From a virus: DNA of 28,381 bases. The notes under the pieces are model-generated. The model made no database searches, had not been told where the DNA came from, and saw nothing but the letters and a program-made list of their open reading frames with translations. The translations under genes were made by a program, and so were the position numbers. Shown here piece after piece: positions 2 to 22,396 of the stretch (position 1 is the stretch's first letter; every line of letters begins with the position of its first letter). The stretch covers positions 1-28,381 of the IMG/VR virus record IMGVR_UViG_3300025030_000356, one strand, 5' to 3'.

Positions 2-73
2 GTATTCGCCCTGGACCTGTCCATGCTGACGTGGGCCTGCGAGTACGGGATCAAGAGACTGATGGAGGAGTGA
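2..73 (+). CDS. C-terminal end of an upstream gene (partial)
   Basis: An open frame enters from the left edge and stops with TGA at 71-73. It encodes 23 residues ending in GIKRLMEE. The next gene starts at 75, one base after this stop, and its Shine-Dalgarno GGAGG (64-68 region) lies inside this frame, which is the tight spacing seen throughout the window. Too little is present to suggest a function. Confidence 0.55.
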   Translation, partial: VFALDLSMLTWACEYGIKRLMEE

Positions 74-967: not shown

Positions 968-1669
968 ATGAATAAGACGGAAGGGTACGCCAAGTTCAAG
1001 GACTATCACAAAGGACACATCGCCCTTCTGATCGGGGCCGGGCCGGGGCTATACAACGTCCCCTTGCCCTTTCTGACACTCTATCCTTCCTTTGCGTCCA
1101 ACCGCTTCCACATTTACTATGACCAGACTGGGTTCGCCCCAACCTACTACTTGGACCTGGGGATCAACCATCTGGTGACGGATGAGCAGCGAGAGCCACT
1201 CCTGCCGATGCTGGAGGAGGTTGAGGCGGCCTTTGTCAACCGCTTTACGGCTCATCGTTTGCCTTTTGACAACGTGTGGGGGATCCTGGGGCCGCAATAC
1301 TACAGCCATCCGAAGGGCCTGTACTTCTCATTCGACCCGCTGGACATCATGGGGATCGCCCCGTCCAACATCTTCAGCATGCTCCAGATCGCCTACTACA
1401 TGGGGTTCAAGACCGCCCTGATCGTAGGCATGGACCATTACTACGACACCTCCAGTGAGTACAAGCACTTCTACCCTGATGAGCAGGCTCCGCATTGGGA
1501 GAAGTCGCCGGGGCACAGGATCTCTGAGGAGCAGTGGTACGAGCATACCGATGCGGCCTTTGCGATGGCCCGGACGGTCTATGAGATGGATAAACGCCGG
1601 ATCGTGAACCTATCGGAACCTACTGAATGTACGACTTTTAGGAGAGAAAAGTGGGAGGATTGGGAATGA
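968..1669 (+). CDS. GT42/DUF115-like Rossmann protein, putative CMP-nonulosonate (sialic acid-type) transferase
   Basis: The 233-residue protein has the landmarks of the family that joins MptE-like (DUF115) proteins to the CstI/CstII sialyltransferases (GT42). A nucleotide-binding turn LLIGAGPGL lies at 20-28, where Cst-II has GNGPS. SFASNRF follows at 41-47, with an Asn matching the conserved Cst-II Asn. PTYYLDLG is at 58-65. NIFSMLQIAYYMGF precedes GMDHYY at 154-159. A late GHRIS at 182-186 is placed like the catalytic His region of Cst-II. These enzymes transfer a CMP-activated nonulosonic acid to an acceptor sugar. The CMP-sugar synthetase-like gene at 1980 supports that role, but the acceptor is unknown. 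The Gly-Pro-Gly replacing Gly-Pro-Ser is a deviation. An uncharacterised DUF115 role remains possible. The start is directly after the upstream TGA. Confidence 0.65.
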   Translation: MNKTEGYAKFKDYHKGHIALLIGAGPGLYNVPLPFLTLYPSFASNRFHIYYDQTGFAPTYYLDLGINHLVTDEQREPLLPMLEEVEAAFVNRFTAHRLPFDNVWGILGPQYYSHPKGLYFSFDPLDIMGIAPSNIFSMLQIAYYMGFKTALIVGMDHYYDTSSEYKHFYPDEQAPHWEKSPGHRISEEQWYEHTDAAFAMARTVYEMDKRRIVNLSEPTECTTFRREKWEDWE

Positions 1670-1983
1670 GCGACATGGAAATCAAACACGGACTTTGTGA
1701 CTGGTGCCAGAAAGAAATCCACGCTTCCACTTGGGGGCAGGTGCAAAGGAAAAATGTTAGGGTTAGCAAGATGACAAAGGACGAAGTGGCTTCCGCCATG
1801 AAATACAACCGTGAGATGGGGGAGGCCGCTGGGGACGAGTATGATAGGCTGGCGAAGGAGGCCAAAACGAACTGTGTGATTGTGGCTAGCTTCTTTGATG
1901 ACTTTGTCCCAGGGGGTGATGGGCTCGAAGAGGCCCTGATGTGCAAACGGCACCTTCAGGAAGCCCTGGATTTGCTATCATGA
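1666..1983 (+). CDS. Hypothetical protein with CxxC pair, 105 aa
   Basis: I prefer ATG at 1666 because it overlaps the upstream stop as ATGA and has GGAGG at 1653-1657. A GTG at 1651 with its own GGAG upstream is the alternative and would add five residues. The product has an N-terminal CDWCQ pair, one cysteine near the middle (NCVIVASFFDDF) and one in the C-terminal helix (ALMCKRHLQEAL), so a four-Cys metal site is possible. The central part is a charged helix (KDEVASAMKYNREMGE). It sits between the putative sugar transferase and the cytidylyltransferase and is coupled to both by overlaps, which suggests co-translation but gives no function. Confidence 0.65.
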   Translation: MSDMEIKHGLCDWCQKEIHASTWGQVQRKNVRVSKMTKDEVASAMKYNREMGEAAGDEYDRLAKEAKTNCVIVASFFDDFVPGGDGLEEALMCKRHLQEALDLLS

Positions 1984-2666
1984 GTATCCTCTGCATCATC
2001 CCTGCTCGTGGGGGTAGTCAGGGTCTACCCAAGAAGAACATCGCCATGCTGGCTGGCAGGCCCCTCTTGGCACACTCGATCGATCATGCTTTCGCGACGC
2101 CGTATTCGCCGGGGATCAAAGAGGTTGTGGTGTCGACCGACAGTGCAGAGATAGCCGAGGTTGCAGAGTTGTGGGGAGCGCGGGTGGTCATGCGTCCCCC
2201 GGAACTGAGTGGCCCAGATTCTCCGTCCGAGGACGCCTTGCGGCACGTGTTGAAGAACATTGATTACAGGCCGGACATTGTGGTGTTCTTGCAGGCAACC
2301 AACCCCCTTCGTTCTCCTATCCATATCGCCCAGGCCATCTCCCTGGTAGATAGTGGCATCTTTTCGAGCGTCCTATCCGCGGTCCGTCTTCATCAGTTCG
2401 TGTGGGTGAAAGAGGATACGGAGGCGGTATCGTTGAACTATGATCCGAAGGGGAATCGGCCCATGCGGCAGGATGTATCGGAATTCGTCGAGAATGGATC
2501 GATCTACTGTTTCCAGACGGGGGTACTGGAGATGTATGGGACTAGGCTGGGGGGCAAGATTGGCATTGTGGAGATGCCTGGGTGGTCGCGGTTTGAGATT
2601 GACACCCCCGAGGACTTGGAGTTGTGTGAGTGGATCATGACCAAGAAAGGTCTACTTGGAGGTTGA
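1980..2666 (+). CDS. neuA: CMP-N-acylneuraminate (sialic acid-type) cytidylyltransferase
   Basis: The 228-residue product has the family's usual length and all main motifs. The CTP-binding signature IIPARGGSQGLPKKNI is at 6-21. The VVVSTDS strand carries D54. The sequence RPPELSGPDSPS runs from 72. LQATNPLR is at 104-111. A C-terminal FEIDTPEDL carries D208, part of the metal-binding pair. Enzymes of this family join CTP to a nonulosonic acid (sialic, legionaminic or pseudaminic acid) to give the CMP-sugar donor. Which sugar is used cannot be read from sequence. The chosen ATG at 1980 overlaps the previous stop (ATGA). An upstream in-frame ATG at 1941 would add 13 non-family residues. It is a cytoplasmic enzyme, and a phage would need either host-made nonulosonate or synthesis genes outside the window. 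Confidence 0.88.
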   Translation: MSILCIIPARGGSQGLPKKNIAMLAGRPLLAHSIDHAFATPYSPGIKEVVVSTDSAEIAEVAELWGARVVMRPPELSGPDSPSEDALRHVLKNIDYRPDIVVFLQATNPLRSPIHIAQAISLVDSGIFSSVLSAVRLHQFVWVKEDTEAVSLNYDPKGNRPMRQDVSEFVENGSIYCFQTGVLEMYGTRLGGKIGIVEMPGWSRFEIDTPEDLELCEWIMTKKGLLGG

Positions 2667-4512: not shown

Positions 4513-4760
4513 GCGACGGCGCGGGAATCTCGGTCGCAGTCTTCCTCTTCCTAGCGATGTTGGTCACGACCTGTATGGCGGGGCGAGCTGCTCGTCCATT
4601 GACGGACGAGGAGAGATACTTCTTCAATGGAGAGATGGATATCTGTATTGACTGTGGGAAGCGGCTGCGTCGTCATGAATGGCTCCTGTCTGATGGAAGA
4701 TTGCAGGTTCAGGTCTGGTGTGGCAAGTCGGGCCATGAGCACTATCGGTGGATTGAGTAA
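4509..4760 (+). CDS. Membrane-anchored zinc-ribbon-like small protein, 83 aa
   Basis: Starts with GTG overlapping the preceding TGA (GTGA) and has AAGGAG just upstream. Residues 6-24 form one hydrophobic segment (ISVAVFLFLAMLVTT), a likely transmembrane anchor or signal. The following part has C46-xx-C49 (CIDCGKRL) and C71 with H76 and H78 (WCGKSGHEH), a plausible Cys/His zinc site. The VTTC sequence near the segment end resembles a lipobox only loosely. The location just before the HNH and terminase genes may be incidental. No function assigned. Confidence 0.7.
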   Translation: MSDGAGISVAVFLFLAMLVTTCMAGRAARPLTDEERYFFNGEMDICIDCGKRLRRHEWLLSDGRLQVQVWCGKSGHEHYRWIE

Positions 4761-5155
4761 TGACTACGGCCTCCAGGAAGGCCACCCTGAAGCGGTACTA
4801 CGAAACGCACAAAGAAGAGCGGAAGGCCCAGAACAAGGAGTGGTATTCCAAGAAGGTAGGAAGTGGGTACAACACAGGGAAGCGGCGCAAGAGAGTAAGC
4901 GCCGACTTCAACAATGACGACTGGGAATGGTGCTTGCGTATCTTTGACCATAGGTGCTTGCGGTGCGGGTCGAGAGACAATCTAGAGCGGGACCACGTGA
5001 TCCCGATCGATGAGGGGGGCAAGAAGGGACTTGACAACTTGCAGCCTTTGTGTAGGGCGTGTAATGCGATGAAGAGGACTTCCCTCCAGGACTATCGCAA
5101 GGGTACCATCGCCCGATTGTTTGGACTCGGCTATCACGGAAGGGGGATGTTGTAA
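4760..5155 (+). CDS. HNH endonuclease
   Basis: The 131-residue product has a complete HNH core. A first zinc knuckle C66-xx-C69 is followed by RDHVIPI with the catalytic D78-H79, then GG, LDNLQPLCRACN with N93 and the second pair C98-xx-C101, and a final K105. The N-terminal 45 residues are a basic helix likely to touch DNA. HNH genes placed right before the large terminase are frequent in phages. In HK97 and related phages such a nuclease takes part in DNA packaging or terminase activity (established), and I infer the same here. A free-standing homing nuclease is the alternative. The ATG shares its first base with the previous TAA. Confidence 0.9.
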   Translation: MTTASRKATLKRYYETHKEERKAQNKEWYSKKVGSGYNTGKRRKRVSADFNNDDWEWCLRIFDHRCLRCGSRDNLERDHVIPIDEGGKKGLDNLQPLCRACNAMKRTSLQDYRKGTIARLFGLGYHGRGML

Positions 5156-6690
5156 TGCGGGGCTTCGTGGACTGGGTGAAGGACAACGGGTTCTTATGTA
5201 GTTCAGAGGTTGTGGATAGCGGTCACTATGAGCTATTCCCCATAGCCGAGAGGATCCTTCGCCACTGTCTGACACCAAAGGAGGATGGGACATTACCATA
5301 TAGGCGCATCATTTGGGCGTGTCCTAAGAAGTCTGGGAAGACCCTGCTGGCGGCTGCTATTGGTACTTGGTACATCCGGGAGGTCGGGCCGCCTGGAAGT
5401 GAAGTGTATGTTTGCGCCAATGACATAGAGCAGGCGGAGGCGCGGGTGTTCGCTGCGATGCGTTGGCATTTCGATCACGAGAATGAGGAACTTCCTCCAT
5501 CTGACCGGTCGCGGACCCAGAAGTTCCGTATTGACCTCCCCAACGGCTCGTTTGTCAAGGTGCTTGCGAAGCACTATCGGTCGGCGGCAGGCGCTCAACC
5601 TGGATGTACGTTGTTTGATGAGTTGTGGGCCTACACGAGTGAGGATGCAATGCGGATGTGGGCTGAGATGACCATCCCTCCAACAGTCAAGAATCCAATC
5701 CAAGTTATCGTAACTTACGCTGGGTATGAGAACGAATCTCCGAACTTGCTTCTCGATATGTACAACAAGGTTGTGAAGAATGGGACGGTCGTTGAGGAAT
5801 TGAAGGACATCACGGACTCCAAGGGTCCGGTTTGTTATGAGAGCGGTGGGACGTTCTGCTATTGGGACCATGAGCCCAGGATGCCTTGGCAGACTCCGGA
5901 GTATTACGAGACCGAGATGCAGAGCCTTCGTCCCTCGGACTTCCTGAGGATGCACCGGGTCGAGTGGGTGACGACAGAAGAGCAGTTCATGCCGATCGAA
6001 TGGTACGACAAGTGTACGACCCTTACGGCACCGCTAATGCTTCAGCCCCAGAACCCCGCCAGGACACTGCCAATGGTGATTGGGGTGGATATTGGGGTCA
6101 AGCACGACTGCACGGCTGGGCTGGGGATGTACTACGATATGATGAGGCCCCAGGTCGGGCTGGGCTTCCACCGGATATGGACCCCGCCCCCAGGGATGAT
6201 TGGATTGGATCTTGAGGAGACGATTGAGGCGTGGATCATACAAATGGCGAAGGCATTCAAAGTAGCCGCGATTGTTTACGATCCGTCCCAATTCCACCGT
6301 TCGATGGTGACTTTACACAAACGGGGTCTGCCTCTAGTGGAGTTTACACAAAGCTCCACCAACATGATTGCGGCAACGCAGAACATGTATGACCTATTCC
6401 GGCAGGGGATCATGGCCGTCTACCCTGATGACCAACTTCGTCAGCATGTCCATTTCGCCAAAGCGAAGGTAGACGAGCGTGGGTTCCGTTTGGTCAAGGA
6501 TAAGGAATCCACCTACCCTATCGATGCCGCGGTAGCCATGGCCATGGCGTCTTACTATGTGGTGAAGGTAGGGGGTATTGATACGAGCAACCGGATTCGG
6601 ATCGAATCCCCGTTCTCGGATGCAACAGGCTGGGACGCAAACTACATAGACCAGTCGATGCTACCCGAGCCGTTGCGGGATAAGAGGTAA
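5155..6690 (+). CDS. terL: Terminase large subunit (packaging ATPase and nuclease)
   Basis: The 511-residue product has both terminase halves. The ATPase has Walker A CPKKSGKT at 56-63 and Walker B TLFDELWAY with D155-E156, followed by a coupling-like VTYAG near 187. The RNase H-like nuclease has three acidic residues in context: D312 in IGVDIG, D376 in IVYDPSQ and D457 in YPIDAAVAMAMA. It pumps DNA into the procapsid through the portal and cuts the concatemer. No recognisable small terminase lies upstream. The start codon overlaps the HNH stop by one base. The family is the TerL_1-type group of siphovirus-like terminases by motif style, though the exact subfamily is uncertain. Confidence 0.95.
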   Translation: MRGFVDWVKDNGFLCSSEVVDSGHYELFPIAERILRHCLTPKEDGTLPYRRIIWACPKKSGKTLLAAAIGTWYIREVGPPGSEVYVCANDIEQAEARVFAAMRWHFDHENEELPPSDRSRTQKFRIDLPNGSFVKVLAKHYRSAAGAQPGCTLFDELWAYTSEDAMRMWAEMTIPPTVKNPIQVIVTYAGYENESPNLLLDMYNKVVKNGTVVEELKDITDSKGPVCYESGGTFCYWDHEPRMPWQTPEYYETEMQSLRPSDFLRMHRVEWVTTEEQFMPIEWYDKCTTLTAPLMLQPQNPARTLPMVIGVDIGVKHDCTAGLGMYYDMMRPQVGLGFHRIWTPPPGMIGLDLEETIEAWIIQMAKAFKVAAIVYDPSQFHRSMVTLHKRGLPLVEFTQSSTNMIAATQNMYDLFRQGIMAVYPDDQLRQHVHFAKAKVDERGFRLVKDKESTYPIDAAVAMAMASYYVVKVGGIDTSNRIRIESPFSDATGWDANYIDQSMLPEPLRDKR

Positions 6691-6693
6691 TCA

Positions 6694-8607
6694 ATGTCAG
6701 TTTATCTTGATCAAAACTCAGTTGACAACAAGAGAACCCTTGATGCTATCGTGAAGTACCGAGTTGAGGCGGAGAAATTCTCCAACCCTTGGCACGAGAA
6801 CATTCGTCGGTGGCGTCGTCTGTATGAGTTTGACCACTACAAAGGACAGCCCAAGGCTGGAGAGGAAAGGTTCCCCGACCCTACCGCCACCAACGTTACA
6901 GACTTGGCAGTCGGGATCATTATGGCCAACGGTCTGGAGTTCCGGGCTTTAGGCTTCAGCCCATCGCATGGGGAGCGGGAGGATACCAGCCGGATCGAGA
7001 AGTTCCTGGTGGGTCTAGTGGATGTTGCATCGGAGCGGGAGGGCTACGATATTCAGTATGAGAGCATCCTGCAAGCCTGCCGGGATGGGTCGTCTGTGCT
7101 CTATACGGTTTGGGATCCCAAACTTGATGAATCCGAGAAGACGATGGGGCAGCATCCTAAGACTGGAGAGCCGATCCAGGTCTATAAGACCCCGCCTATG
7201 TGCCTCAAGGTTTTGGACGCTACGGAGATCAAGTTCATTCCTGGCGGGAAGGGCGGGTTCGATCACATCTTCCGGATCGTTCAGATGAGCCCCTATCAGG
7301 TTGAGCAGGAATTCGGGATGTTGCCTCCGAAGTACGCCACCTGGAGTCTATCACAAAAGATGGACTTGGCCTCCAAGGCCGAATTGGTGGACTACTGGTG
7401 CCGAACAGAGATGGAGATCGAGCAGCCGGTTATTGGTCCGGATGGGATGCCAAGATTCAATCCCGTCCTGGGACAGCCGGAGGTCTACACAGTCAAGAAG
7501 GAAGTGATCCAGCACGCCCTGACGTACTCGGGCGAGGTGATGTGGCCATTGGCGATCGCTGATGGGTACGAAGATCTCCCCTTCGAGATTGGCAAGTTCA
7601 AACCTACAAGGAAACTAGACCCTGTTGGGTTCGACAGCATCATCCGACCTTTAGAGGGAACTATTGATTTCTTGGAGAAATCTGTCAACCGTAGGATGCA
7701 TCAGGTCAAGGTATATACCGGGATGCCTATGGTTGCGAGGGTAGCGGCGGGCCGTGGAGTAGACATCGACCCCGGCCTAACCAAAGTTGTGGAGTTGACC
7801 CCGGACGAGAGTCTAGAGTTTCCCAAATGGCCCGGCAACCCGCCGGATGTTGATCAGCAAATCAACTACCTAAGGGCCAGGCTTCAGCAGTCCGGGTTTG
7901 CAGATGTGATGTTTGGATCGGGGACCGGACAAGTCGCCGGTTACGCCCTGTCCCAGATGGGAGACCAGAACCGCATTCGGTTGGAGCAGCCGGTTCGGCA
8001 TCTGGAGCGGATGTGGTCGGAATGGGGCCGGAAGGTCCTACGGCTGATTGCAACCTTTGGTGCCGGCTCGATGATACGAGCCTATGGGCGGATGCGAGGC
8101 AAGGACTTCGTTGAGCAGATATTTGGGCAGGAAGTATCCGAGTATCTGGTGCGGGCCTATATCAAGCCCAAGTTCCCTAACGATCAGGTACGCAACCACG
8201 CCATGGCGACGCAGGCCGCCCCTTGGCTGTCTCCTTGGACGATCATGGAGCGGTACCTGGACATTGAGCAGCCGGATGATGAGGTTGACAAGCTGATCCA
8301 GTGGCAGGCAACCCAGCACCCAGCCTTCAAACAGTATGCCGTCATGGCGGCCCTGAAGGAAGCGGCTGATGAGGGCGATGAGATTGCCCAGCAAGTCCTG
8401 GTGATGATGCAGCAGGGACAGTTGTCTGGGGAGCCTGGGCGGCCCAAGGAGCCTAGCAACCCTGAGCAGATGATGGGCGGGATGGGGTCGACTGGCCAGC
8501 CAACTAGGCAACAGGCAGGTGGGGAAGCCCCAGGCCAGGCAGCCACGGACATGATGGATGCTCTGGCGAATGCGGCTCCTGGGATGCTGACAGGAGGAGT
8601 TCAGTGA
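6694..8607 (+). CDS. Portal protein
   Basis: The 637-residue product is placed directly after TerL and has the portal signature of this group: an N-terminal helical region with RRWRRLYEF, a stem part, and a segment at about 400-452 that starts SGFADVMFGSGTG and continues with SQMGDQNRIRLEQPVRHLER. Such segments form part of the crown and wing helices in large portal proteins. The C-terminus is Gln/Gly/Met-rich and probably disordered. Twelve copies would form the DNA channel at one capsid vertex. The ribosome binding site is weak (AGAGGT), so coupling with TerL translation is likely. Confidence 0.93.
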   Translation: MSVYLDQNSVDNKRTLDAIVKYRVEAEKFSNPWHENIRRWRRLYEFDHYKGQPKAGEERFPDPTATNVTDLAVGIIMANGLEFRALGFSPSHGEREDTSRIEKFLVGLVDVASEREGYDIQYESILQACRDGSSVLYTVWDPKLDESEKTMGQHPKTGEPIQVYKTPPMCLKVLDATEIKFIPGGKGGFDHIFRIVQMSPYQVEQEFGMLPPKYATWSLSQKMDLASKAELVDYWCRTEMEIEQPVIGPDGMPRFNPVLGQPEVYTVKKEVIQHALTYSGEVMWPLAIADGYEDLPFEIGKFKPTRKLDPVGFDSIIRPLEGTIDFLEKSVNRRMHQVKVYTGMPMVARVAAGRGVDIDPGLTKVVELTPDESLEFPKWPGNPPDVDQQINYLRARLQQSGFADVMFGSGTGQVAGYALSQMGDQNRIRLEQPVRHLERMWSEWGRKVLRLIATFGAGSMIRAYGRMRGKDFVEQIFGQEVSEYLVRAYIKPKFPNDQVRNHAMATQAAPWLSPWTIMERYLDIEQPDDEVDKLIQWQATQHPAFKQYAVMAALKEAADEGDEIAQQVLVMMQQGQLSGEPGRPKEPSNPEQMMGGMGSTGQPTRQQAGGEAPGQAATDMMDALANAAPGMLTGGVQ

Positions 8608-10089: not shown

Positions 10090-13000
10090 ATGCCGCTCAA
10101 ACAATCGAGATTTCCTCGACTGGATCCACGCTCCAAGGAATTCAGGGACGTTGCTACGGGTCGGGGGATAAAGGGGCCTGGTGATCCGGGGCCAAAGAGA
10201 CGGCCCGCGGATTCTCTTCTTCTTCATCCCGCCCAGGGGGCTCCTCCTGCCCAGGGGGCATGGTCTCCAATGTCCTTGGTCCGGGGAAAACCCGGCCCGC
10301 GGGTCGGAGAGATTCCTATGGAGGCGGAGGCGGCCCCACCCGAACATGCTCAGATCCCAGAAGCGATTTTGGCGGGCGGGCACGTCATTCGTCCGGCAGG
10401 TCCTCAGAACTGGGACGTAGTGGAGATCAACAACCAGATTTCACAGATGGAGGCGGAGGGGAACCTAGAGGGGATTGAAAACTCAGAACGGATGAGGGAA
10501 TACCAACATCTGGTGACACAAAGGGGGGTTCTTCGAGAAAATGGGTGGCTGAACTTCCCATCGGCGCTGGGCATCACAGGACGACCGCCGGCCTCGGGTG
10601 AGAGTGTTTATCTGTACCATCGAGGAGAGACGGAACTAAGAACATTCTCCGTACAGCCTTTTGAGGATCGGGATCTATTACAACATGCCGGCTCTTTGTG
10701 GAACCGCCTAACCTTCAATCGGATGCAGGACTGGATTGAGTTGCGTAGGCGGAACCCTGTCGTAAACTTCCTCGTAAAAACGTCCTCCATTTCTTGGCGT
10801 GGGCTCATAGTGGATTGGTCTCTTATCAAGAATGCGATTCCTGGTATTTTGAGGACGTATTTTCAGCCGGCCTACACTTTGAGTGCCGAGCCGCGTGCGT
10901 TGATAAGTGGGCGGGCCGGCGTCGGAGAAATACGTCAGGAGCCAATAGAGCAGGCTCCCTTTGTTGAGAGACTAGAAGAAGACGCGGGGTGGCAGACGTT
11001 CTCGCAAGATGTAACCAACTTCGTTGGATTGCTGGAAGCCGAGATTCCGGCTGCTATTGTGGAGGTGGTCAAGTCCGTCTTTAGTGAAGAGGTTGAATCT
11101 CCAGTGCCCCATGACGAACTGCTTGGGGTATCTCGCCATCATGTGATAAATCAGATCCGAGCGGACGACCTGGATGGGGCTCGTCAGACGATGTTGTTGT
11201 CGGGCGTCTCCCCGGAGATGACCGAGGAGATTATCCAAGAATCTGTTGAAATCCGGGATGCCCCACTTCGGCGCATGGAGGATATTCAGGACCTTGTGGA
11301 CCAGTACAATCGATGGATGGACCCCAAAAGCATAATTAGGTGGACAAGCGGGCGTCAGGCACAAGATGAAATGAACGCTCTGTTTGAGAGGGGATCTGCG
11401 GCGGTTGGGGCCTTGCGGGACTCGTATGATCCCGAGTTCCATTCGGTTGGAATGGGTGGATGGACAGCCAGTTACATGTTTTTGGCGGACGGCCAGGAGC
11501 GATGGGAGGCCGATAACCGAAACATCTGGTTATTCATTCTTCAACAGGGACGCTTGCCTGGCCAAGACGAGATGCGCCAGCTTACGATGGTCAATGCGGA
11601 CCAAGGTCTGGAGTTTGCTTGGCAGGGCCTCACGGACGTATTCAACTATGTTTCCATCCCGTTTGCTGATGATATTGTAAGGTCATTGGGTGGGGCTCTT
11701 GGGAAGGGGGTTCGGGCGGCATGGGAGATGGCGGAACACGCCCCGGTCGTGGGGCGGGGATTTGTGGCTGCCCGAGAGATCTTCAGAGGGATGGCACATC
11801 TATCGGCTTCGTATGTTTGGGGTCGGTCATGGGGTGGGCGCATTATGGGCACGATCGCCCGCGCTACGGAGCGGGTGACGGGGACGGATGGGATGTTGCA
11901 TGTTATTCATCGGATGTTTGATAGGACGAATCCGATGACCGGCGTCGAGCGGGTACGGTATGGCCTGACCGACAACCTGATGAGACGGTTCAGGGGACTC
12001 ATTGAGAGACTAGGAACCGAAGCTGCCCCCTTTACGGAGCGGCAGTTTGTTGCAATGGTATCGGATGCCGCCGATGAGGTAGCGGAGGCTCGGCTAGTCG
12101 TTTTGCGTCGGGAGGCTGGGGCGGGACGGACTGCGGCAACTGATCTGGAACTGGTCCGCTCGGCCAATGCGTTTGCCAGTGAGCCTCGGAGCCTAGTGCA
12201 CGCGCTTTCCGAACGCTTCCGGCAGAGGTATTTGGAGTTGAGAGTTCTTCCGGGGCTTGGGGGAGCACGGGGGACTCGGTATTTGGATGAGGGTCTGATT
12301 GCTTGGGCGTATCACCAAACCAACGAGCCGGCCACGATTGGGAGAGTGCGTCGAATTCTGAGAGAGCTAGGTCTGGATAGTGTTGATCCACAACAACTAT
12401 TTCGTGACTTCTCAAGAAACATAGATAACGTTTGGGATCTTCACGGGATCCCTGAGGATGCGATTGGTCGGCTCGAAGGTGTGATGGTGCGCCCTTCATC
12501 CAACGTTAGTGGCTTGGTACGGGCGATGGTGGCTATCAACGACACCTATCAGGGGTTCATGAGCTTCTGGACGACAATGGTGCTGAGAGCCCGGCCTTCC
12601 TTTGTCATCAACAACATCATTGATACCTACTTCAAAGCCATCATCACGGGCTCAAACCCTTTCCAGTCCTTGGACACAATTCTGGCCAGATTCCAGGAAC
12701 TTGGGACCTTCTTCCCCGAGGATCTTAGGATGGTCCTACATTCGACCCAACTTGGGGGCCGTAGCCTAGAGGATCTGGCACTCGAGGGCCGTCTACCAAG
12801 GAACTTCGTAGAGTGGTTCCGCATGGGTGCTGAGGAGGGAGTGCGCCACGGACGGATACCGGCCTGGAACGGCTGGCTTGGAGGTTTAGGGGCCATCTGG
12901 GAGGGGACCGAAGTCACCGCCCGAGCCGCAACCTACCTGCGCCTGTATGAGACTGATGTTTCCATCATGGCACACCATCTGGATAATTGGCTTTCCGCCG

Positions 13001-16000
13001 CTCTTCTTGAGAGTCAGGCAGATCCGGTGGCATCGGCCCTGTTGAGAAGCCTTCGTTATCGGGTGAGTAGGAGTACGACGGGGTACGGGATTGCCAACCC
13101 GTCCCGGATGACAGAGGTCCTGGATCTCCTTGCCGGGTTGAGGACCCGAGGCCGTGTCCCCCTGATCCTGAGCGAAGACCTGATGAACCGGATGATGAAC
13201 CTGTTGGGGAACGACCCCAACGCCCGTGCCGCCCATGCCGTGATTGAACAGGGCGTCCGGGACATCCTTCAGCAGGGTGGGACGCCGGAGGAGATTGATC
13301 GTTCCATAGGGCAGTTGTTTGATGACATCCTGGCCGGCTTCGAGGAGGATCAGGCGGCCCAGAACTTGCAGAACCTCCGCAACATGCCAGGTGCTGACGT
13401 GCCGATCGATCCCGAGAGGATGAACGGGGCGGCCAATGCTGTAGACGATGCGATGGAGGCTGGGACCCTCCCGGAGGTGCCCCCAGACGCTCCACCTCCT
13501 GAAGCCCCTGCACATCCTGGGCCGACGCAGAATGTGAGACCAGCACCAAGAGAAACTCTCACCCGCTCATGGCGCGCTGGACATCGACAAGCCGAGATTA
13601 CCTTCGCCTCTGATGTTCAAAGGGATCTCTATGATGCCGGCTCCAAACTTTCCCGGACCATGCGGGGGCAGAATCCTCTACCCGCTTCGGAAGCTCGGGC
13701 GGCCATTGCGAGTGTTGCTGGGCGGTTAGGTATAAGCGAGGATGACGCGTCTGCTCTTGCCACCCGTGTATATCGGGATATTCGAGATCAGATGCGAGGC
13801 ATTGCAGACGGGGAGGCTAGGGTCGTTGTTGACAATGTAGGCTTGCCTTCAAGGGCGGCTGTTGAGGCCGCGCCCACGGCCATCCCCGAAAGGATCAGGG
13901 TTGAGGGACCCACTGGCGTATGGGAGGGAACCAGGGGGGAAGCACAGGCAGAATTACAGCGCCTAGAAGACATCCTCCTGGGCGAGGGAGCATACGAGGA
14001 GGGAATGCAGGAATTCTACCTCATGAGAGAGGATGCCCGCCTTCTGAGAGAGGCATTGGATGCTATGCCCGCCGCCCCAACAGCCGCCCCAGAAGTTACC
14101 GTAACTCCGGCAGCGGCCCCGGAGGCTGTCGACATTCCTCCTGGGCGGAACCTTTTGGATGAGGCTGATGCTGGCTTGCGAGATGACATAGGTCGTCTGC
14201 GGGCGGATGGTAACGAGGCGGGGGCTCAGCAGTTGAATGAACTCTTTAGTGAGGAAGGGCCATCTATCCGAAGGGACGCAGCGAGGGCAGGGGCGCAGAT
14301 GGGACGGACATCCGCCGCCCTATCGAACCTGCGGGCCGATCTCAACGAGGCAGCCCAGGGGGCTTTGCAGGCGGCAAGGACGGCAGCCGATGTCACGGCA
14401 TCTCGACTGGCCCTAGAGCAGGCTGCTCAACTGAACTTGCAGTCGTTGTATCTGGGAGATCTCGATCTAGCTCTTGGTCGGTTTGCCCGAGTTGGAGACC
14501 ACCGAAATTGGGTTTTGGCCTGGGCGCTCAATGTCCCCTACTCCCCTCGTACGCGGAACATGCGTTGGCGACAGGTCTATGAGATCATCGCAGGGGAGTA
14601 CCGGGCCGCAGACACCATTCTCACAAGAGCCCTGGAGGAGTCCCAGCATCTAATGCAGGCAGATCCGGCGGCCTTTCAGGCCCTGGTTGAATCCGGCGAA
14701 CTGTTTACGCCGCGATCGTTCTTGGAGGCGGCGGGCTATACGATAGAACTAAACCCTGATGGGTCGTTGAGAGTCCTTTCTCATACGGGTGGGGCATTTA
14801 CGACGGTCTCATCGACTTGGGGTTCCGTACCTAATGAGTTTCTCCGGGGCCTTGGATTCAATGGAACCGCTGCCAGCCCCGAAGTTGCTACCTGGTTGGA
14901 TACACCGGTGCGGACGCTTCGGAATCAGCAAGGGGAACTCCTAGGGGCCGCGGAACTCATTGCCAGAGAACAGGCCGAGGCCGCCGAGCGGATCGCCAGG
15001 GCAACCAGGCCGGTTACGGTTCCGGAAGCACCCCCGCCCCCGTCCCTACGTCAGATTGCAGATAGGAACCGGGAACTAGCTGAACATCAAGGGCTAAGGG
15101 TTGTCTACCATGGGCAACCTGACCCAAGTGCCCAGCCGGGAAGATTTGGTAGATTTGGCGGAACTCTAACGGACGCCGAAGGATATGCCGGACTACGGGT
15201 TGGAACGTGGACGGATCACCAAGAGAGAATACGGGTTGCCTATGTAACAGAGCAACAATACCAAGATGGTCGGCGGGCGGCTATTCGGTATGAGTTTGAA
15301 CATGGTCAGGGTGTCAACAATGTAACGGTTGCGCCCGGACCGGACTATGAGAGAAGACTTCAGGAGGCCATTGACGCGGCCACAAGCCGAACGGATCAAC
15401 CCTACCGCTATGTCCTGTTCCCCGAGGGATCTGTAGAGTGGTTGCCGTTGGATGCGTCCCCGCCTGGGGTTCAGGCTCCTGCTCCCGAGGTAGCCCAGGC
15501 TAGAGCGGCGGCACAAGCATCGCTACAGGCTCGACAGGAAAACCTGAGGCGGGGTGTATGGGGAGAGATGATAGGGCCGAATGTTCAGGAGCCCTTCAGT
15601 TTTGACAGCGGTCGGAGTGTCAACGATCTGTATGGGGGACAGAGACTTCCTGATGGACGAATGGCGACTGATTCATTCGATAACTTGGCTGAACATCTTC
15701 GGATGCGGATGCACGCCTATGCGGCGGCTGGTGACTTTCGTCGGGAAGCACAGATCGAGAGGCATCTTGAGGAACTAATCTCGGCGTGGGAAGCCCGTAT
15801 TATGAGAGAGGCCGAGCGCGAGGGCATCCCGATGGGGCTTGGTAGTCGTCGGTTCCGATATCCTAGCCGGGAGATGATGGACCCGAACGTGGTGGCTTAC
15901 TTCCGGGCTCTGGACGACCAAACAGCCTTCGTCAATCAGTTCCGTCAATTGACGGATGACATACGCTCTCACATTCGTAATCGAATGGTTGAGGGGGATG

Positions 16001-18897
16001 TCCTCTTCCGTCAGCTATCTCCTGAGCAGCAGACCCTCATCCAACGCATTGGGCGTGGCTACGTCGAGAACATGGCGCTTGGTGAAGAGGCCGTCATGAG
16101 TGGGGGCGAGTTCTTGGGTCGCAACTATCGGGGCGTCCTCGAAGAGACCAACCGTATCTTCATCGGCTACCATCAGTTCTCTCAGTTCGACCGGATGATG
16201 AAGAATGTCGTCCCGTTCTGGATGTTCCCATCCCGATCGATCCCATTCTGGTTGGGGGCCATGGTTCACGATCCAGAGTTGGTTGGATGGTACCTACGGT
16301 ACATGAGCAACACCAGCATGGTCGCCTGGCAGCACGGCTTTGCAACATCCAGGGGGGAACCGCTGCCGTCCATGCGGGGCCTGATCCCCTTGGGGAACGG
16401 GATGTGGTGGAACCCGACTGGGCCGTTATCCATGCGCTACGTCTTCCCAAACCTGGATTACTACGATCTTCAGGAGATGACCGACCAGGATGTAGGGTTT
16501 GGGACTATCGCAACCAGCATCGCGTTGCGTTCCCTGTCGATGTTTGGGGCATCCCCATCGCCTTGGGTGCCGCTTCTCTTCCGGGTTACGGGGACGTTGG
16601 ACGCTGACATCTACCAGCCGATGGGTTTGCTGCCCCAAGCACAGCTTATCCCACCGGTTGCTAATGCCCTTCTGAAGAGAGTGGCCCGGCAGACGACATT
16701 TGGTCGTTTGGCGATGGAACTTTTGGATCCCGACGCATCCTACATCGACTTCCTAGTCGAGCAGCAGATCCTAATCAGCTTCCTGGAGCAAATTGCCGAT
16801 CCAAGCATGACGGACGCTCAAAGGTGGGCGCTTCTGGATACGGCACAGAATGCCTTGGACATGTATGCTCGGGGCGAGGACCCGGCGGCCCAGAGGCTAT
16901 GGGAAGAAGCCTACGGCCATATTCAGACGGATGACTGGTTGACTGCGACTCTGGGCTACTTCACGGGGATCTATCCAAGAATGCACACAGACGCGGATGC
17001 CCGCCTACTCTACACCAGGGCCGAGAATGCCCGCCTGCGGTGGGCTGCCAACGATGTTCTTGGGGCGCACATGTTGGAGCTACCGAAGGATATCGAGCAG
17101 ATGTGGGGCATCATCACCAGCCGCATCAATGACGTGCCAGCGAACTACGCCGCCAACCTCTATACGGCTTTCTCCTGGGTTCGGGTTCCGTCTGGATCAG
17201 AGCCCTATGACCCGACCCGAGAGAGCCCCCAGGCATATTATGATCGGGTCAGTCGGGTTTCCTCATCCTACGAGTCTGTGGATGGGATGAGCTACAACGT
17301 CATCGTGGCGTTCAACATAGAATCCCAGCGCCAGCGGCATGAGTATATGGCTGAGTGGGAGCGTATTCGACAGGTGAGAGACCAAGCTCTACATGCCCTG
17401 CCGGCCGGTAACAACCCCGCGGTCGAAATTGAAATCCAGCGGCGATATGCGGCCGAGGTAGCAGACCTGGAACTGCGGTACCCCTTAGCGCCCCGTGATT
17501 GGGTTATCGGCTACAAGCCCGAACAGTTGGTCTACGAGGACTTCCGTAACCTGTGGTGGCACACCCTACTGGATGGGGCTCCGTCGTGGGATCCTGATCG
17601 GTATGAGGTCTACGCTGACTACCAGCGGGACTACCAGACGTGGCTGGACCGCCTACCTGCCATTGCGGCCCCCATGATGAGGGAGATGCAGACCCGTTTT
17701 GCTGAGGCCAACTTCATGAACGCCGCGCTCAACCGGCCGGAGGACCTAGGTCTCATGCTGGTTGCGGAGACCAATGCGGCTGGGTTGGAGCAGTGGCGGA
17801 TCGAAACCGACGATATTCACTCGGCAATCAACTACGTCTGGGTTCACAACTTCCAAGAGCGGTACTACGAAGAGGTTGGGAAGGCAACAACCCCCGAGGG
17901 GCGGGAACTTCTTGAGAGGAACTTCCTACGTCAGTTTGGGCCGGATGGTCGTCCGACTGAGGAAGACATCATCGAGTGGATGCAGGCCCGGTACGGGGAT
18001 CGTTTCACGGTTCAAGACATTCGGCAGGGCCTTTATGGGCGGGCCATCCTATCCATGGAAGATCGTCAGGCTCAGAATGCAGAGTTGCGGGTTGGAGAGG
18101 CCGCTGCGGGACGGGATGAGCGCATCTGGAACCTTCTCAATCGTGTCCCACCTGGGGCCGCCTACGACGACTTTATGGATACATTCCGTCGGAATGAGGG
18201 CGATGACGGGTGGATGGAGGCGTTCCGACGGACAACCTCCACGGCCGATTGGCGGAATCCCGAAGACGCCCAGCAGTTTGAGGCCATCCTAGAACGGACC
18301 TTGAGGGAGCTTGGATACAACCAGCCGGTGGGTGATGAGGAGCTTGCGAGCCGCTCACAGGCCCGAGAGGAGCAGGACCAATTTCGGGGACTTGTGACGG
18401 GGCGGCTTGGGGAGGACTTCTGGACAACCTTCAGTTGGTACATGTCCCTCAGCCAATCGGAGCGGGCCGCTGCCAGGGAGCAGGATCCAACCTTATCTGG
18501 CCTGATCGATCAATACTATGCCATGAAGGATATGTGGGGCATGTCCCATCCCGTCTGGGCACAGTATTACCTTGGTGAAGTTACCACAACTAGAGGGGGC
18601 GGAGGTGGCGGTGGAGGGGGAGGCAGGCGTGGAGGGGGTGGTGGAACCCGGACGCCTACCCGGCGTTTGTCCTACATCCCTCTGGGCTATCGTGGTGCTG
18701 CCGAGGGGCGAGAACTGCTCCAGGCCGGGAGGAGGTTGGGCTCTGGTGGGGCCGGGGGCAACTTGCCCCCATTGGGAGGGGCCAGCTTGACCCGATCGGG
18801 CGGGGGTGGAGGAACAACTGGGGGCTTATCACCAGAGGAAGAGGAACTTCTGGCCAAGATGGCAGAAGGTCAAGAAAAGGCTAAGGTTCGTAAGTAA
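10090..18897 (+). CDS. Giant polyvalent-type virion/ejection protein, 2935 aa
   Basis: One uninterrupted 8.8 kb frame. Residues 1-80 are basic and Pro-rich. A segment at about 833-845 (RPSFVINNIID) and another at about 2025-2052 (GYHQFSQFDRMMKNVVPFWMFP) recall paired motifs of LPD38-like regions in phage polyvalent proteins, but they are about 1,200 residues apart. Between them are modules separated by Pro/Ala linkers at about 1128-1150, 1327-1353, 1640-1653 and 1790-1802. The first module (about 1157-1245, AEITFASDVQRDLYDAG) recalls a segment common in polyvalent proteins. The third (1654-1790) is ADP-ribosyltransferase-like. The C-terminal 900 residues are Trp/Arg/Glu-rich helices, ending in a Gly-rich tail. 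By position between portal and scaffold I infer an internal protein ejected with the DNA. AAGGA precedes the ATG. I see no RNA polymerase, lysozyme or protease motif. Confidence 0.88.
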   Translation: MPLKQSRFPRLDPRSKEFRDVATGRGIKGPGDPGPKRRPADSLLLHPAQGAPPAQGAWSPMSLVRGKPGPRVGEIPMEAEAAPPEHAQIPEAILAGGHVIRPAGPQNWDVVEINNQISQMEAEGNLEGIENSERMREYQHLVTQRGVLRENGWLNFPSALGITGRPPASGESVYLYHRGETELRTFSVQPFEDRDLLQHAGSLWNRLTFNRMQDWIELRRRNPVVNFLVKTSSISWRGLIVDWSLIKNAIPGILRTYFQPAYTLSAEPRALISGRAGVGEIRQEPIEQAPFVERLEEDAGWQTFSQDVTNFVGLLEAEIPAAIVEVVKSVFSEEVESPVPHDELLGVSRHHVINQIRADDLDGARQTMLLSGVSPEMTEEIIQESVEIRDAPLRRMEDIQDLVDQYNRWMDPKSIIRWTSGRQAQDEMNALFERGSAAVGALRDSYDPEFHSVGMGGWTASYMFLADGQERWEADNRNIWLFILQQGRLPGQDEMRQLTMVNADQGLEFAWQGLTDVFNYVSIPFADDIVRSLGGALGKGVRAAWEMAEHAPVVGRGFVAAREIFRGMAHLSASYVWGRSWGGRIMGTIARATERVTGTDGMLHVIHRMFDRTNPMTGVERVRYGLTDNLMRRFRGLIERLGTEAAPFTERQFVAMVSDAADEVAEARLVVLRREAGAGRTAATDLELVRSANAFASEPRSLVHALSERFRQRYLELRVLPGLGGARGTRYLDEGLIAWAYHQTNEPATIGRVRRILRELGLDSVDPQQLFRDFSRNIDNVWDLHGIPEDAIGRLEGVMVRPSSNVSGLVRAMVAINDTYQGFMSFWTTMVLRARPSFVINNIIDTYFKAIITGSNPFQSLDTILARFQELGTFFPEDLRMVLHSTQLGGRSLEDLALEGRLPRNFVEWFRMGAEEGVRHGRIPAWNGWLGGLGAIWEGTEVTARAATYLRLYETDVSIMAHHLDNWLSAALLESQADPVASALLRSLRYRVSRSTTGYGIANPSRMTEVLDLLAGLRTRGRVPLILSEDLMNRMMNLLGNDPNARAAHAVIEQGVRDILQQGGTPEEIDRSIGQLFDDILAGFEEDQAAQNLQNLRNMPGADVPIDPERMNGAANAVDDAMEAGTLPEVPPDAPPPEAPAHPGPTQNVRPAPRETLTRSWRAGHRQAEITFASDVQRDLYDAGSKLSRTMRGQNPLPASEARAAIASVAGRLGISEDDASALATRVYRDIRDQMRGIADGEARVVVDNVGLPSRAAVEAAPTAIPERIRVEGPTGVWEGTRGEAQAELQRLEDILLGEGAYEEGMQEFYLMREDARLLREALDAMPAAPTAAPEVTVTPAAAPEAVDIPPGRNLLDEADAGLRDDIGRLRADGNEAGAQQLNELFSEEGPSIRRDAARAGAQMGRTSAALSNLRADLNEAAQGALQAARTAADVTASRLALEQAAQLNLQSLYLGDLDLALGRFARVGDHRNWVLAWALNVPYSPRTRNMRWRQVYEIIAGEYRAADTILTRALEESQHLMQADPAAFQALVESGELFTPRSFLEAAGYTIELNPDGSLRVLSHTGGAFTTVSSTWGSVPNEFLRGLGFNGTAASPEVATWLDTPVRTLRNQQGELLGAAELIAREQAEAAERIARATRPVTVPEAPPPPSLRQIADRNRELAEHQGLRVVYHGQPDPSAQPGRFGRFGGTLTDAEGYAGLRVGTWTDHQERIRVAYVTEQQYQDGRRAAIRYEFEHGQGVNNVTVAPGPDYERRLQEAIDAATSRTDQPYRYVLFPEGSVEWLPLDASPPGVQAPAPEVAQARAAAQASLQARQENLRRGVWGEMIGPNVQEPFSFDSGRSVNDLYGGQRLPDGRMATDSFDNLAEHLRMRMHAYAAAGDFRREAQIERHLEELISAWEARIMREAEREGIPMGLGSRRFRYPSREMMDPNVVAYFRALDDQTAFVNQFRQLTDDIRSHIRNRMVEGDVLFRQLSPEQQTLIQRIGRGYVENMALGEEAVMSGGEFLGRNYRGVLEETNRIFIGYHQFSQFDRMMKNVVPFWMFPSRSIPFWLGAMVHDPELVGWYLRYMSNTSMVAWQHGFATSRGEPLPSMRGLIPLGNGMWWNPTGPLSMRYVFPNLDYYDLQEMTDQDVGFGTIATSIALRSLSMFGASPSPWVPLLFRVTGTLDADIYQPMGLLPQAQLIPPVANALLKRVARQTTFGRLAMELLDPDASYIDFLVEQQILISFLEQIADPSMTDAQRWALLDTAQNALDMYARGEDPAAQRLWEEAYGHIQTDDWLTATLGYFTGIYPRMHTDADARLLYTRAENARLRWAANDVLGAHMLELPKDIEQMWGIITSRINDVPANYAANLYTAFSWVRVPSGSEPYDPTRESPQAYYDRVSRVSSSYESVDGMSYNVIVAFNIESQRQRHEYMAEWERIRQVRDQALHALPAGNNPAVEIEIQRRYAAEVADLELRYPLAPRDWVIGYKPEQLVYEDFRNLWWHTLLDGAPSWDPDRYEVYADYQRDYQTWLDRLPAIAAPMMREMQTRFAEANFMNAALNRPEDLGLMLVAETNAAGLEQWRIETDDIHSAINYVWVHNFQERYYEEVGKATTPEGRELLERNFLRQFGPDGRPTEEDIIEWMQARYGDRFTVQDIRQGLYGRAILSMEDRQAQNAELRVGEAAAGRDERIWNLLNRVPPGAAYDDFMDTFRRNEGDDGWMEAFRRTTSTADWRNPEDAQQFEAILERTLRELGYNQPVGDEELASRSQAREEQDQFRGLVTGRLGEDFWTTFSWYMSLSQSERAAAREQDPTLSGLIDQYYAMKDMWGMSHPVWAQYYLGEVTTTRGGGGGGGGGGRRGGGGGTRTPTRRLSYIPLGYRGAAEGRELLQAGRRLGSGGAGGNLPPLGGASLTRSGGGGGTTGGLSPEEEELLAKMAEGQEKAKVRK
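15049..15459 (+). other. ADP-ribosyltransferase-like module inside the giant protein
   Basis: Residues about 1654-1790 of the giant protein, bounded by Pro-rich linkers. VVYHGQ at 1672-1677 resembles the first strand of ART toxins and ART-PolyVal domains (h-YHGT), followed by GRFGRFGGTLTDAEGYAG, where such domains have a Phe/Asp turn and an A-x-x-Y/A helix, and a late strand YRYVLFPEGSVEWLP. A clear catalytic Glu motif is not certain: candidates are E in EGSVEW or in RYEFEHG. If real, it would modify host proteins after ejection. A degenerate or unrelated fold is possible. Confidence 0.35.
18595..18645 (+). repeat. G-rich tract encoding poly-Gly tail
   Basis: Near the 3' end of the giant gene, about 50 bases made almost only of G runs with single-base breaks, encoding the Gly/Arg tail TRGGGGGGG. 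It has quadruplex potential like the tract at 9166-9215 and ends a 900-residue helical region. It may act as a flexible hinge in the protein or a slow-translation site in the mRNA. Confidence 0.5.
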
Positions 18898-19837: not shown

Positions 19838-20827
19838 ATGGCTCACGCCAATGTTGCTGCTTTGAGTGATGCCGTCAAGACGCTTTACGAGAAGCGGCTA
19901 CTCAGCCGTGCTCTCCCGCGCCTTGTTCACGGCAAGCACGTCACCTCTGCACGACTCAATCAGTTTGGTGCTTACGAACTTCGCAAGTACGCCGGGCTTT
20001 CAGCCGTTACATCCGAGTTGACGGAGGGGAACACCCCCAACGAGCTGGCTAGCCCGACCGTGGCCACGACCACCATCACGCCCCTGTGGTATGGTGCTTG
20101 GCTTGGCTTCACGGACAAGATCATCATGACGGCCTACGATCCTTTGCTCTCTGAGTTCTCCAGCATCCTGGGCGAACAGGCAGGGCTGTCTGTGGACACC
20201 CTGATCCGCGACGTTCTTGAGGCTGGGGCGACGGCGGACTACGCAGGTGGGGCCACCACGACCGCTACGGTTGACTCCACGAATGACAAGATCGCGTTCT
20301 CCGACTTCCTATCCCAGGTGGCGAACCTCGACAGTGCGAATGCCATGCCCATCGAGGGTAATAGCTACTGGGTTGTGGCTCACCCCTTCACCTGGCTCAC
20401 CCTGATGCAGGACTCGATGTTCGCTACGCTTATCACTCGTGAGGGCGGAGAGGCGTACCGACGTGGCGAGATGGGTAGCCTTCTGCGTTGCAAGATCTAT
20501 GTGACCAGTAATGCCTATGTGAACTCGGCCGCGGGCACCAGTTCGATCGATGTGTATACGACCCTCTTCATGGGTAACGAGGCCATCGGAGCGGCAGGGA
20601 TCGCGGCACTGACCCCGAACGTGAGTTTGGATGCAGGCGGTGGGGAACTGGCTGTCCAGACCGGACGCCCGCAGCAAAAACCGGTTGAACTCATCATCAA
20701 TGACCTTGGTGGGACTGGGTTCGACCCGTTGAAGCAGCGTGGGACGATCGGCTGGAAGATGGTCCACAAGTCCGCGGTTCTGAATGCCGTTTGGGTCCGC
20801 GCACTAGAGCACGCAGTTAGCTCGTAA
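19838..20827 (+). CDS. Major capsid protein, N4-gp56 family-like (HK97 fold)
   Basis: The 329-residue product follows the scaffold. It has the N4-gp56-family pattern: a basic N-terminal helix, then SELTEGNTPNEL near 58-69 with strands ending in PLWYGAWLGFTDKI, a long helix (LLSEFSSILGEQAG), a Ser/Thr/Ala-rich loop region with ATVDSTNDKIAFSDF, and a C-terminal block at 295-307, FDPLKQRGTIGWK, that is close to the typical DPLxQRGTxGWK end of this family. It forms the procapsid shell. A second domain or fused protease is absent. Ser/Thr/Gly-rich loops (ATADYAGGATTTATV) may be exposed on the outer surface. The ribosome binding site is AGGAG at about 19826. Confidence 0.93.
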   Translation: MAHANVAALSDAVKTLYEKRLLSRALPRLVHGKHVTSARLNQFGAYELRKYAGLSAVTSELTEGNTPNELASPTVATTTITPLWYGAWLGFTDKIIMTAYDPLLSEFSSILGEQAGLSVDTLIRDVLEAGATADYAGGATTTATVDSTNDKIAFSDFLSQVANLDSANAMPIEGNSYWVVAHPFTWLTLMQDSMFATLITREGGEAYRRGEMGSLLRCKIYVTSNAYVNSAAGTSSIDVYTTLFMGNEAIGAAGIAALTPNVSLDAGGGELAVQTGRPQQKPVELIINDLGGTGFDPLKQRGTIGWKMVHKSAVLNAVWVRALEHAVSS

Positions 20828-20851: not shown

Positions 20852-21343
20852 ATGGCTAAAACCCTTCCTCCGTATGGAGATCAGTACCTAGGCGATAACC
20901 CCTGGGCCGTGCGAGTGGACGAGGTTATCATGTACCTGACAGGCCAGAACACATCGGCTGTGACCTACGGGACGGACGTGGACAGCGACGATATCGCTGT
21001 AACGGCGTCTTCGGCGGCCCAGACGGTGGGCCTGTGGGTTCTACCTGCGGGAGCGTTCGTGAAAGCGATCTATGCCAACACGGCCGACTCTTGGGGAACC
21101 AACAGCGACGATGGCAACATCACGGTTGGGGACACAGGCGCAGTGGATACGTACTTTACGGACACGCTGCTCGCCCCCTGCGCGACCGATGCCGCTGGCG
21201 TCTTCAAGACCAACGCCTTGACGCCTCCGGCCGGAAAGTTCTATGACACGGGTGCAACCATCTCCGCCACCTTCCCGCTTGCCCACTCGGCCGTTGTGAC
21301 TGGACTGACCAAGTTCGTACTCGTTTGGTCTATGGCTCGATAA
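20852..21343 (+). CDS. Small beta-rich virion protein, copy A of a tandem pair, 163 aa
   Basis: A Thr/Gly/Asp/Val-rich beta protein lying right after the capsid gene, with AAGGAG before the ATG. Its first 67 residues match the next gene product in 58 positions, and both end in SMAR. The repeated pattern of short strands (VGLWVLPAGAFVKAIYA, NITVGDT, then GKFYDTGATISATFPL) suggests a beta sandwich. Capsid decoration (cement) proteins often lie here and are small beta proteins, so that role is likely, but not proven. A head-fibre or tail-tube piece is the alternative. Confidence 0.72.
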   Translation: MAKTLPPYGDQYLGDNPWAVRVDEVIMYLTGQNTSAVTYGTDVDSDDIAVTASSAAQTVGLWVLPAGAFVKAIYANTADSWGTNSDDGNITVGDTGAVDTYFTDTLLAPCATDAAGVFKTNALTPPAGKFYDTGATISATFPLAHSAVVTGLTKFVLVWSMAR

Positions 21344-21353
21344 GGGAGGAATA

Positions 21354-21842: not shown

Positions 21843-21854
21843 AGGAGACCAACC

Positions 21855-22311: not shown

Positions 22312-22394
22312 GGGGAGGGGACTAGGGCCAGATCCCGAGGCGGAGCTATCCTGGAGTTCCGTGTCCTCTCCCCGACAACAACCAGGAGGTTGTC
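22312..22394 (+). promoter_or_regulatory. Structured RNA leader with two stem systems before the second GT42-like gene
   Basis: The largest non-coding gap in the window (22296-22396) can fold strongly. An 11-bp outer stem (22312-22322 with 22363-22373, one G-U pair) encloses a short GGG/CCC hairpin (22325-22327 with 22334-22336) and a 7-bp hairpin (22341-22347 with 22355-22361, one G-U pair), giving a three-way junction. Immediately after, 22378-22383 can pair with 22388-22393, placing AGGA of the Shine-Dalgarno site in a four-base loop just before the ATG at 22397. No T-run follows, so it is not an intrinsic terminator. A translational or processing control is plausible. Confidence 0.5.
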
Positions 22395-22396
22395 CT

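Follow-up and report, generated by a model that had tools for sequence, protein, structure and literature searches.

A phage late-strand gene cassette predicted to make and use a CMP-activated acidic sugar

A gene for a GT42/DUF115-like transferase lying next to one for a NeuA-like cytidylyltransferase in a viral fragment raises the question of whether a phage carries the means to activate an acidic sugar with CMP and, if so, on which acceptor that sugar would be placed. The DNA analysed (hereafter, the window) is the whole 28,381-nucleotide stretch of a tailed-phage record, IMGVR_UViG_3300025030_000356 (G000). In our reading it holds the downstream portion of a phage cassette making and using a CMP-activated acidic sugar, with a probability of about 0.66, all of the enzymes being predicted from their sequences.

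Gene content and phage context

The features of the window are listed in Table 1. Both ORFs of the original prediction are present, with the motifs described for the transferase (GAGPG, SFASNRF, GMDHY and GHRIS). The 310-base spacing, the intervening small CxxC gene and the two ATGA overlaps, located at 1666-1669 and 1980-1983 and coupling transferase, CxxC gene and NeuA1, were also correctly described; the region considered there, 968-2666, spans only part of the cassette. The two main ORFs are not chance reading frames, because NeuA1 matches CTP_transf_3, the transferase yields a confident fold, and dN is far below dS in both (0.035/0.37 for the transferase and 0.15/0.64 for NeuA1, in comparison with a relative). 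Purifying selection, with dN well under dS, was found in all four cassette genes compared.

Table 1. Features of the window, with the evidence on which each assignment is based.
Feature	Position	Strand	Basis or remarks
HpcH/HpaI-type (class II pyruvate) aldolase, 3' end	2..73	+	full gene 250 aa, L001:1405-2157 and L009:2918-3670
DUF115/GT42-type putative CMP-sugar transferase, 233 aa	968..1669	+	fold, profile, weak PF01973
CxxC gene, 105 aa	1666..1983	+	CDWC; ATGA overlaps on both sides; no family match
NeuA1, predicted NeuA-type CMP-(nonulosonate) synthetase, 228 aa	1980..2666	+	CTP_transf_3, PDB matches, tree
Small ORF, ~72 aa	2668..2886	+	next in operon; homologue in L009 near 5569-5793
Predicted SAM methyltransferase, N-terminal CxxC pair, 258 aa	2893..3669	+	PF13489, 4.5e-19
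HNH endonuclease	4760..5155		immediately 5' of the large terminase
Terminase	5155..6690	+	PHROG, 4e-44
Portal	6694..8607	+	weak PHROG match, 4e-4
Single 2935-aa ORF	10090..18897		between portal and head genes; without PHROG match
Major head protein	19838..20827	+	PHROG, 4e-37
Three consecutive ORFs, possible decoration proteins	20852..22295		3' of the major head protein; first two near-duplicates
DUF115/GT42-like paralogue	22361..23554	+	3' of the major head protein and the three putative decoration-type ORFs

As far as the fragment reaches, the late strand opens with the cassette, and the structural genes lie on the same strand. This placement follows from contig G002, which extends the window by 22 kb: + strand genes without assigned function, probably encoding the tail, continue first, and a run of opposite-strand genes is found only beyond them. 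One of the latter encodes a 321-aa protein that is RecA-like by eye. An HNH endonuclease directly ahead of the large terminase, as seen here, is a common arrangement among cos-type phages. The 2935-aa product has the look of a giant virion protein, structural or internal.

Only the last 23 codons of the aldolase gene fall within the window (bases 2-73), and the full gene was read from L001, a contig 99.97% identical to the window over 7.7 kb, which extends 2.1 kb further upstream (window base 1 is L001 base 2085). There, a second NeuA-like gene (NeuA2) precedes the HpcH/HpaI aldolase, and the 3' end of a second transferase is detected at the very start (G001:4-111). A diverged cassette, about 80% identical in NeuA1 and 95% in the transferase, is carried by the 5.9-kb contig L009, which was assigned by binning to a Gammaproteobacteria MAG. 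Its gene order is: DUF115-like gene, second DUF115 gene (37% identical to the window transferase), small gene, NeuA2, aldolase, transferase, NeuA1. In the window lineage, two transferase-NeuA pairs thus flank the aldolase. The CxxC gene, whose homologues were found in near-identical contigs only, is missing from L009, in which position 4890 is both the end of the transferase gene and the start of NeuA1, the two overlapping directly.

Predicted enzymes of the cassette

NeuA1 matches the Pfam family CTP_transf_3 with an E-value of 2.1e-24. Among PDB chains, it matches PpNeuA (3e-30), mouse CMAS (8e-27) and meningococcal NeuA (2e-22) best; NeuA chains as a whole range from 3e-30 to 5e-13 (108.7 to 52.6 bits), against 4e-10 at best and 43 bits or less for KdsB. 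The motif set tested comprised ARGGSxGxPxKN, QxTxPLR, RQ...NG and [DE]xD near the C-terminus. The corresponding NeuA1 segments PARGGSQGLPKKN, QATNPLR, MRQDVSEFVENG (RQ...ENG) and EIDTPED align with solved NeuA chains, and presumably have the roles established for the family. A 51-row maximum-likelihood tree groups E. coli KdsB with the KdsB-like bacterial genes in a single clade (100/100) and leaves NeuA1 outside it. PDB scores and the separate clade together rule out a KdsB identity, and the NeuA-like assignment made originally was upheld. The PseF equivalog (TIGR03584) was also rejected, at 91.5 bits against a curated cut-off of 205.7. NeuA2 keeps ARGGSKSIPHKN and has lost the QxTxPLR (QPTSPLR-type) motif, so its substrate may differ or the enzyme may be weak. 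By strong homology at the family level, both proteins would transfer CMP from CTP to a sugar acid.

Single-sequence searches with the 233-aa transferase gave no match in PDB, PHROG or phage records, and when only the three transferases served as queries against viral sequences, the same phage alone was returned. The originally proposed comparison with PF01973 (MptE-like/DUF115) produced a match, which is weak (E 0.0022) and, at 18.2 bits, below the gathering score of 34.6 bits. An iterated profile search of the ORFs on viral contigs with NeuA gathered about sixty relatives. With a ten-row profile of the closest kin (alignment A8), Cst-II ranked first at 2.9e-7 and MptE was found at 0.03; with a 48-row profile, the values were 2e-15 for Cst-II, 2e-4 for Maf, 2e-3 for MptE and 0.008 for the GT29 enzyme ST8SiaIII. 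Twenty of the 48 phage relatives match PF01973 at 1e-3, that of L048 at 46.6 bits, and the Pfam families GT29 and CST-I are matched by three and two of them, respectively.

The structure was modelled by AlphaFold: an input of three sequences gave a pLDDT of 36, and 32 relatives were needed for a confident model (pLDDT 80.9, pTM 0.85). Compared by VIA, this model gave Z scores of 12.3 with MptE (8sd5), 9.5 with ST8SiaIII and 7-9 with thiamine pyrophosphokinases (TPKs), while unrelated folds drop to about 4. The match to Cst-II anticipated in the original prediction was obtained (1ro8, Z 11.5), Maf (5mu5) being better at 15.3; the alignments to Maf, MptE and Cst-II cover 159-189 residues. Foldseek ranked MptE 8sd5 at the top. 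In BFVD, a region matching the model (E 1.8e-5) is held by a 714-aa phage protein named as a methyltransferase, A0A6J7X5Q0. Model and profiles agree on a GT42/Maf/MptE fold, as originally proposed, and an unrelated family is not indicated; we regard this modelled sialyltransferase-type fold as settled.

The fold does not by itself settle the putative transferase activity, since one of its branches moves pyrophosphate and the catalytic histidine of Cst-II is without a clear counterpart. In the profile alignment, GAGPGL and N45 of the window protein coincide with the CMP-binding GNGPSL and N31 of Cst-II. The nearby His183 and His193, candidates for the position of His188 in Cst-II, are absent from the sister transferase L009:1101-1898, and the equivalent region of the model is a low-confidence loop (162-183) with the helix that follows. 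The linkage to NeuA tips the balance to sugar transfer.

GT29-type sialyltransferases, a family known mainly from eukaryotes, are likely to be present among the rows of the phage profile (alignment A6; 3 of 48, best 2.4e-12; possibly L034 and L035, 9574-10203). Virus contigs bearing GT29 near NeuB/NeuA merit attention.

Upstream of the pair, where a neuB/legI-type gene had been looked for following the original prediction, the HpcH/HpaI aldolase was found instead. NeuB was not detected in G001 or G002, a genome which is incomplete upstream, so that NeuB could lie beyond. The aldolase is the unusual part of the cassette. It matches PF03328 at 2.4e-22 (79.7 bits against a cut-off of 25) and HpaI/GarL/YfaU in the PDB, and it shows DxEH, R, QxE and GPxDL, which we take to be catalytic as in the established family. 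The HpaI, GarL and YfaU equivalogs themselves were rejected by NCBIfam scores (102.9 vs 368.8, 94.1 vs 406.75 and 69.5 vs 441, respectively). Among the six best homologues of the phage aldolase, a small set drawn from 398 genomes of the L009 MAG's phylum, five lie about 3.5 kb or less from a cytidylyltransferase (L108, L109/L112, L110/L113, L114 and L115); those cytidylyltransferases that were placed in the tree are KdsB-type. In the simplest reading, the aldolase would make a 3-deoxy-ulosonic acid which the synthetase activates; alternatively, the phage would use a nonulosonic acid made by the host and the aldolase would do something else.

Distribution among viral contigs

A scan with two NeuA types identified 68 viral contigs, reduced to 55 after removal of near-identical ones. 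In 28 of these 55, NeuA has a DUF115-type gene no more than 2 kb away, and in twelve the distance is at most 50 bp; the pair, thought uncommon in the original prediction, thus belongs to a recurrent gene set of environmental phages. Per 10 kb, there are 2.1 DUF115-type genes in the first kb from NeuA and 0.85 in the next, falling to between 0 and 0.4 at greater distances. The detection profile was built from these same contigs; since it was run over whole flanks, each contig provides a fair internal control for the peak near NeuA. By whole-contig searches, the DUF115-type family was found in 43 of the 68.

Of 48 NeuA-bearing records, 41 also carry NeuB, in agreement with a CMP-nonulosonate reading for the phage set at large; in 21 of 55 flanks, no more than 50 bp separate the two genes. 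A terminase was recognisable in 15 of 50 NeuA-bearing records, a lower bound, because both terminase families used missed the window lineage (G001, G002). Some of the records could be host flanks of prophages. In G030 and G054, NeuA lies 5.1 and 1.3 kb, respectively, upstream of terminase on the same strand. HpcH/HpaI was found in 3 of 50 NeuA-bearing viral records, always within the NeuA-DUF115 group: the window lineage, L048 and L052.

In L048 and L052, a DAHP/KDO8P-type synthase and a cytidylyltransferase precede the DUF115 gene and the aldolase, the last two sharing a single base. These two phage contigs (79.7 and 61.8 kb) carry an extended sugar cluster, comprising a KDO8P/DAHP-type synthase, cytidylyltransferases, DUF115, HpaI aldolase, a SIS domain, an FkbM methyltransferase, a DUF4910 peptidase-like protein, NeuB, NeuA and a 2-hydroxyacid dehydrogenase.

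No true phage record with this NeuA was found in the annotated phage collection, where the sole match, FPLJ01000048.1 (L118), is a non-phage sequence, a Moritella viscosa capsule locus filed among phages. The genes neuA and neuB have already been listed among virome reads (Roux et al. 2013, PMC3877843). Beyond these read counts, no report of NeuA/NeuB-DUF115 transferase linkage in phages was found in a limited set of open-access papers, a weak negative, as most subscription papers and all preprints fall outside it.

Proposed pathway, acceptor and related systems

The best reading of the cassette is a late-operon module handling a 3-deoxy-ulosonic or nonulosonic acid. The aldolase would join pyruvate and a sugar aldehyde into a 3-deoxy-2-ulosonic acid, unless a nonulosonic acid of the host is used; NeuA1 and the upstream NeuA2 would move CMP from CTP onto the sugar acid; and the two DUF115/GT42-fold proteins, judged by fold, motifs and linkage, would pass the sugar from CMP to an acceptor. 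The 2893-3669 product, a possible modifier of the sugar or glycan, would perhaps add a methyl group.

The paralogue at 22361-23554, which the iterated phage profile picked up at E 6e-25, is probably a further part of the cassette. It is homologous to L009:60-836, which adjoins the second transferase, and a profile of its own family matched GT42 enzymes (sialyltransferases) alone, at E 0.03-0.9. With L009:60-836, L039, L027, L040 and L058, it makes up a second phage family of distant GT42 kin, sharing the motif ...CSSISYMLxLAxxxGxxEIxLYGVDM...EFWIGxAxGRGIxVxLP, which may be a separate, uncharacterised family of phage transferases. The first two of the ORFs that follow the major head protein share the sequence MAKT[LI]PPYGD.YLGDNPWA...; all three are possible decoration proteins, and as such candidate acceptors.

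For the acceptor, we give a virion protein slightly better than even odds and the host envelope about one chance in three, other targets taking the rest. A virion protein is the likelier because the cassette heads the late strand of structural genes, 22361-23554 lies among such genes, export and polymerase genes were not recognised, and NeuA is near terminase in G030 and G054. With the same enzymes acting on LPS, capsule or another glycan of the host envelope, the acidic sugar would hide receptors from competitors or stop re-adsorption of the progeny. GT42 enzymes are known to act on lipooligosaccharide, and the clusters of L048 and L052 resemble a polysaccharide set, as they also include 2-hydroxyacid and nucleotide-sugar type dehydrogenases, an FkbM methyltransferase and GT-like genes; modification of the host surface is, in addition, how published work interprets the sugar clusters of cyanophages and other jumbo phages (PMC7824862, section 3.4.10). 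The cassette of the window is small by contrast, has structural genes as its late-strand neighbours, and comes with no recognised flippase, polymerase or export gene in the window, L001 or L009, while late timing is a poor fit to the blocking of superinfection.

The other readings are less probable. That the 968-1669 product is a pyrophosphokinase-like or ligand-binding protein of the MptE/TPK side, with NeuA serving something else, is unlikely: the Pfam name, the top Foldseek rank and TPK scores up to Z 9 speak for it, MptE and TPKs both being enzymes that move pyrophosphate, but both profiles place Cst-II far ahead of MptE (3e-7 vs 0.03, and 2e-15 vs 2e-3 in the wider family), VIA scores the Maf glycosyltransferase highest, and the linkage to NeuA would be left unexplained. 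Phages do use glycosyltransferases for DNA modification, and the sugar might be destined for a hypermodified base; we consider this very unlikely, as we know of no CMP-ulosonate DNA modification, the cassette is on the late strand, and no base-hydroxymethylating enzyme was recognised among ORFs of the window and of 20 kb downstream, which were read by eye and mostly unprofiled. The least credible reading is a chimeric assembly, or a phage sequence wrongly joined to capsule genes of a host. Such errors exist, as the misfiled Moritella contig proves, but cassette and terminase/portal share one contig in two separate records (the window and L001), a third, IMGVR_UViG_3300025015_000047 (L003), joins NeuA1 to terminase, L009 is a diverged form under purifying selection, and the overlaps between genes are conserved.

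If the cassette works as a module making and using a CMP-activated sugar, many uncultured phages would hold a compact set to activate and attach acidic sugars. This would change their adsorption, the way in which hosts and competitors see them, and the annotation of DUF115 (MptE-like) proteins in phages. The aldolase form suggests a NeuB-free route to CMP-ulosonic acids. A bolder version, which we hold as a rather doubtful conjecture, is that the HpcH/HpaI aldolase replaces NeuB, giving the phage its own non-canonical 3-deoxy-ulosonic acid, two CMP synthetases, two or three sialyltransferase-fold enzymes and a virion target, with CMP synthetase plus DUF115 as a general virion-glycosylation module. 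Concrete enzymes and candidate acceptor proteins are now available for testing.

Several known systems are close to the cassette. The virome NeuB-NeuA genes of Roux et al. 2013 (PMC3877843) are known from read counts alone, without transferase linkage or an aldolase variant. LPS or capsule clusters of cyanophages and jumbo phages (P-SSM2; PMC7824862, PMC3037559) are similarly phage-borne and combine sugar biosynthesis with glycosyltransferases, but the enzymes described there act on NDP-sugars, and the text of PMC7824862 has no mention of sialic, neuraminic, NeuB or CMP. In the bacterial loci L112, L114 and L115 (KdsB-like gene, HpcH/HpaI aldolase and 2-hydroxyacid dehydrogenase), the aldolase also adjoins a CMP-sugar synthetase, but their cytidylyltransferase belongs to the KdsB clade and no DUF115 gene was detected nearby. 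With the GT42 enzymes Cst-I and Cst-II of Campylobacter, the window protein shares the fold, the GxGPSL start, the Asn after the second strand and the GxD strand end; it differs in its 12-15% identity, in a catalytic His that is not clearly conserved and in its location in a phage late operon. The Maf/DUF115 (PF01973) nonulosonate transferases of flagellin are linked with the use of CMP-Pse/Leg. Unlike them, the window protein is a single 233-aa domain, below the Pfam cut-off and with no flagellin gene in the window, but it is to Maf that it shows its best structural match, with a Z score of 15.3 over 189 residues.
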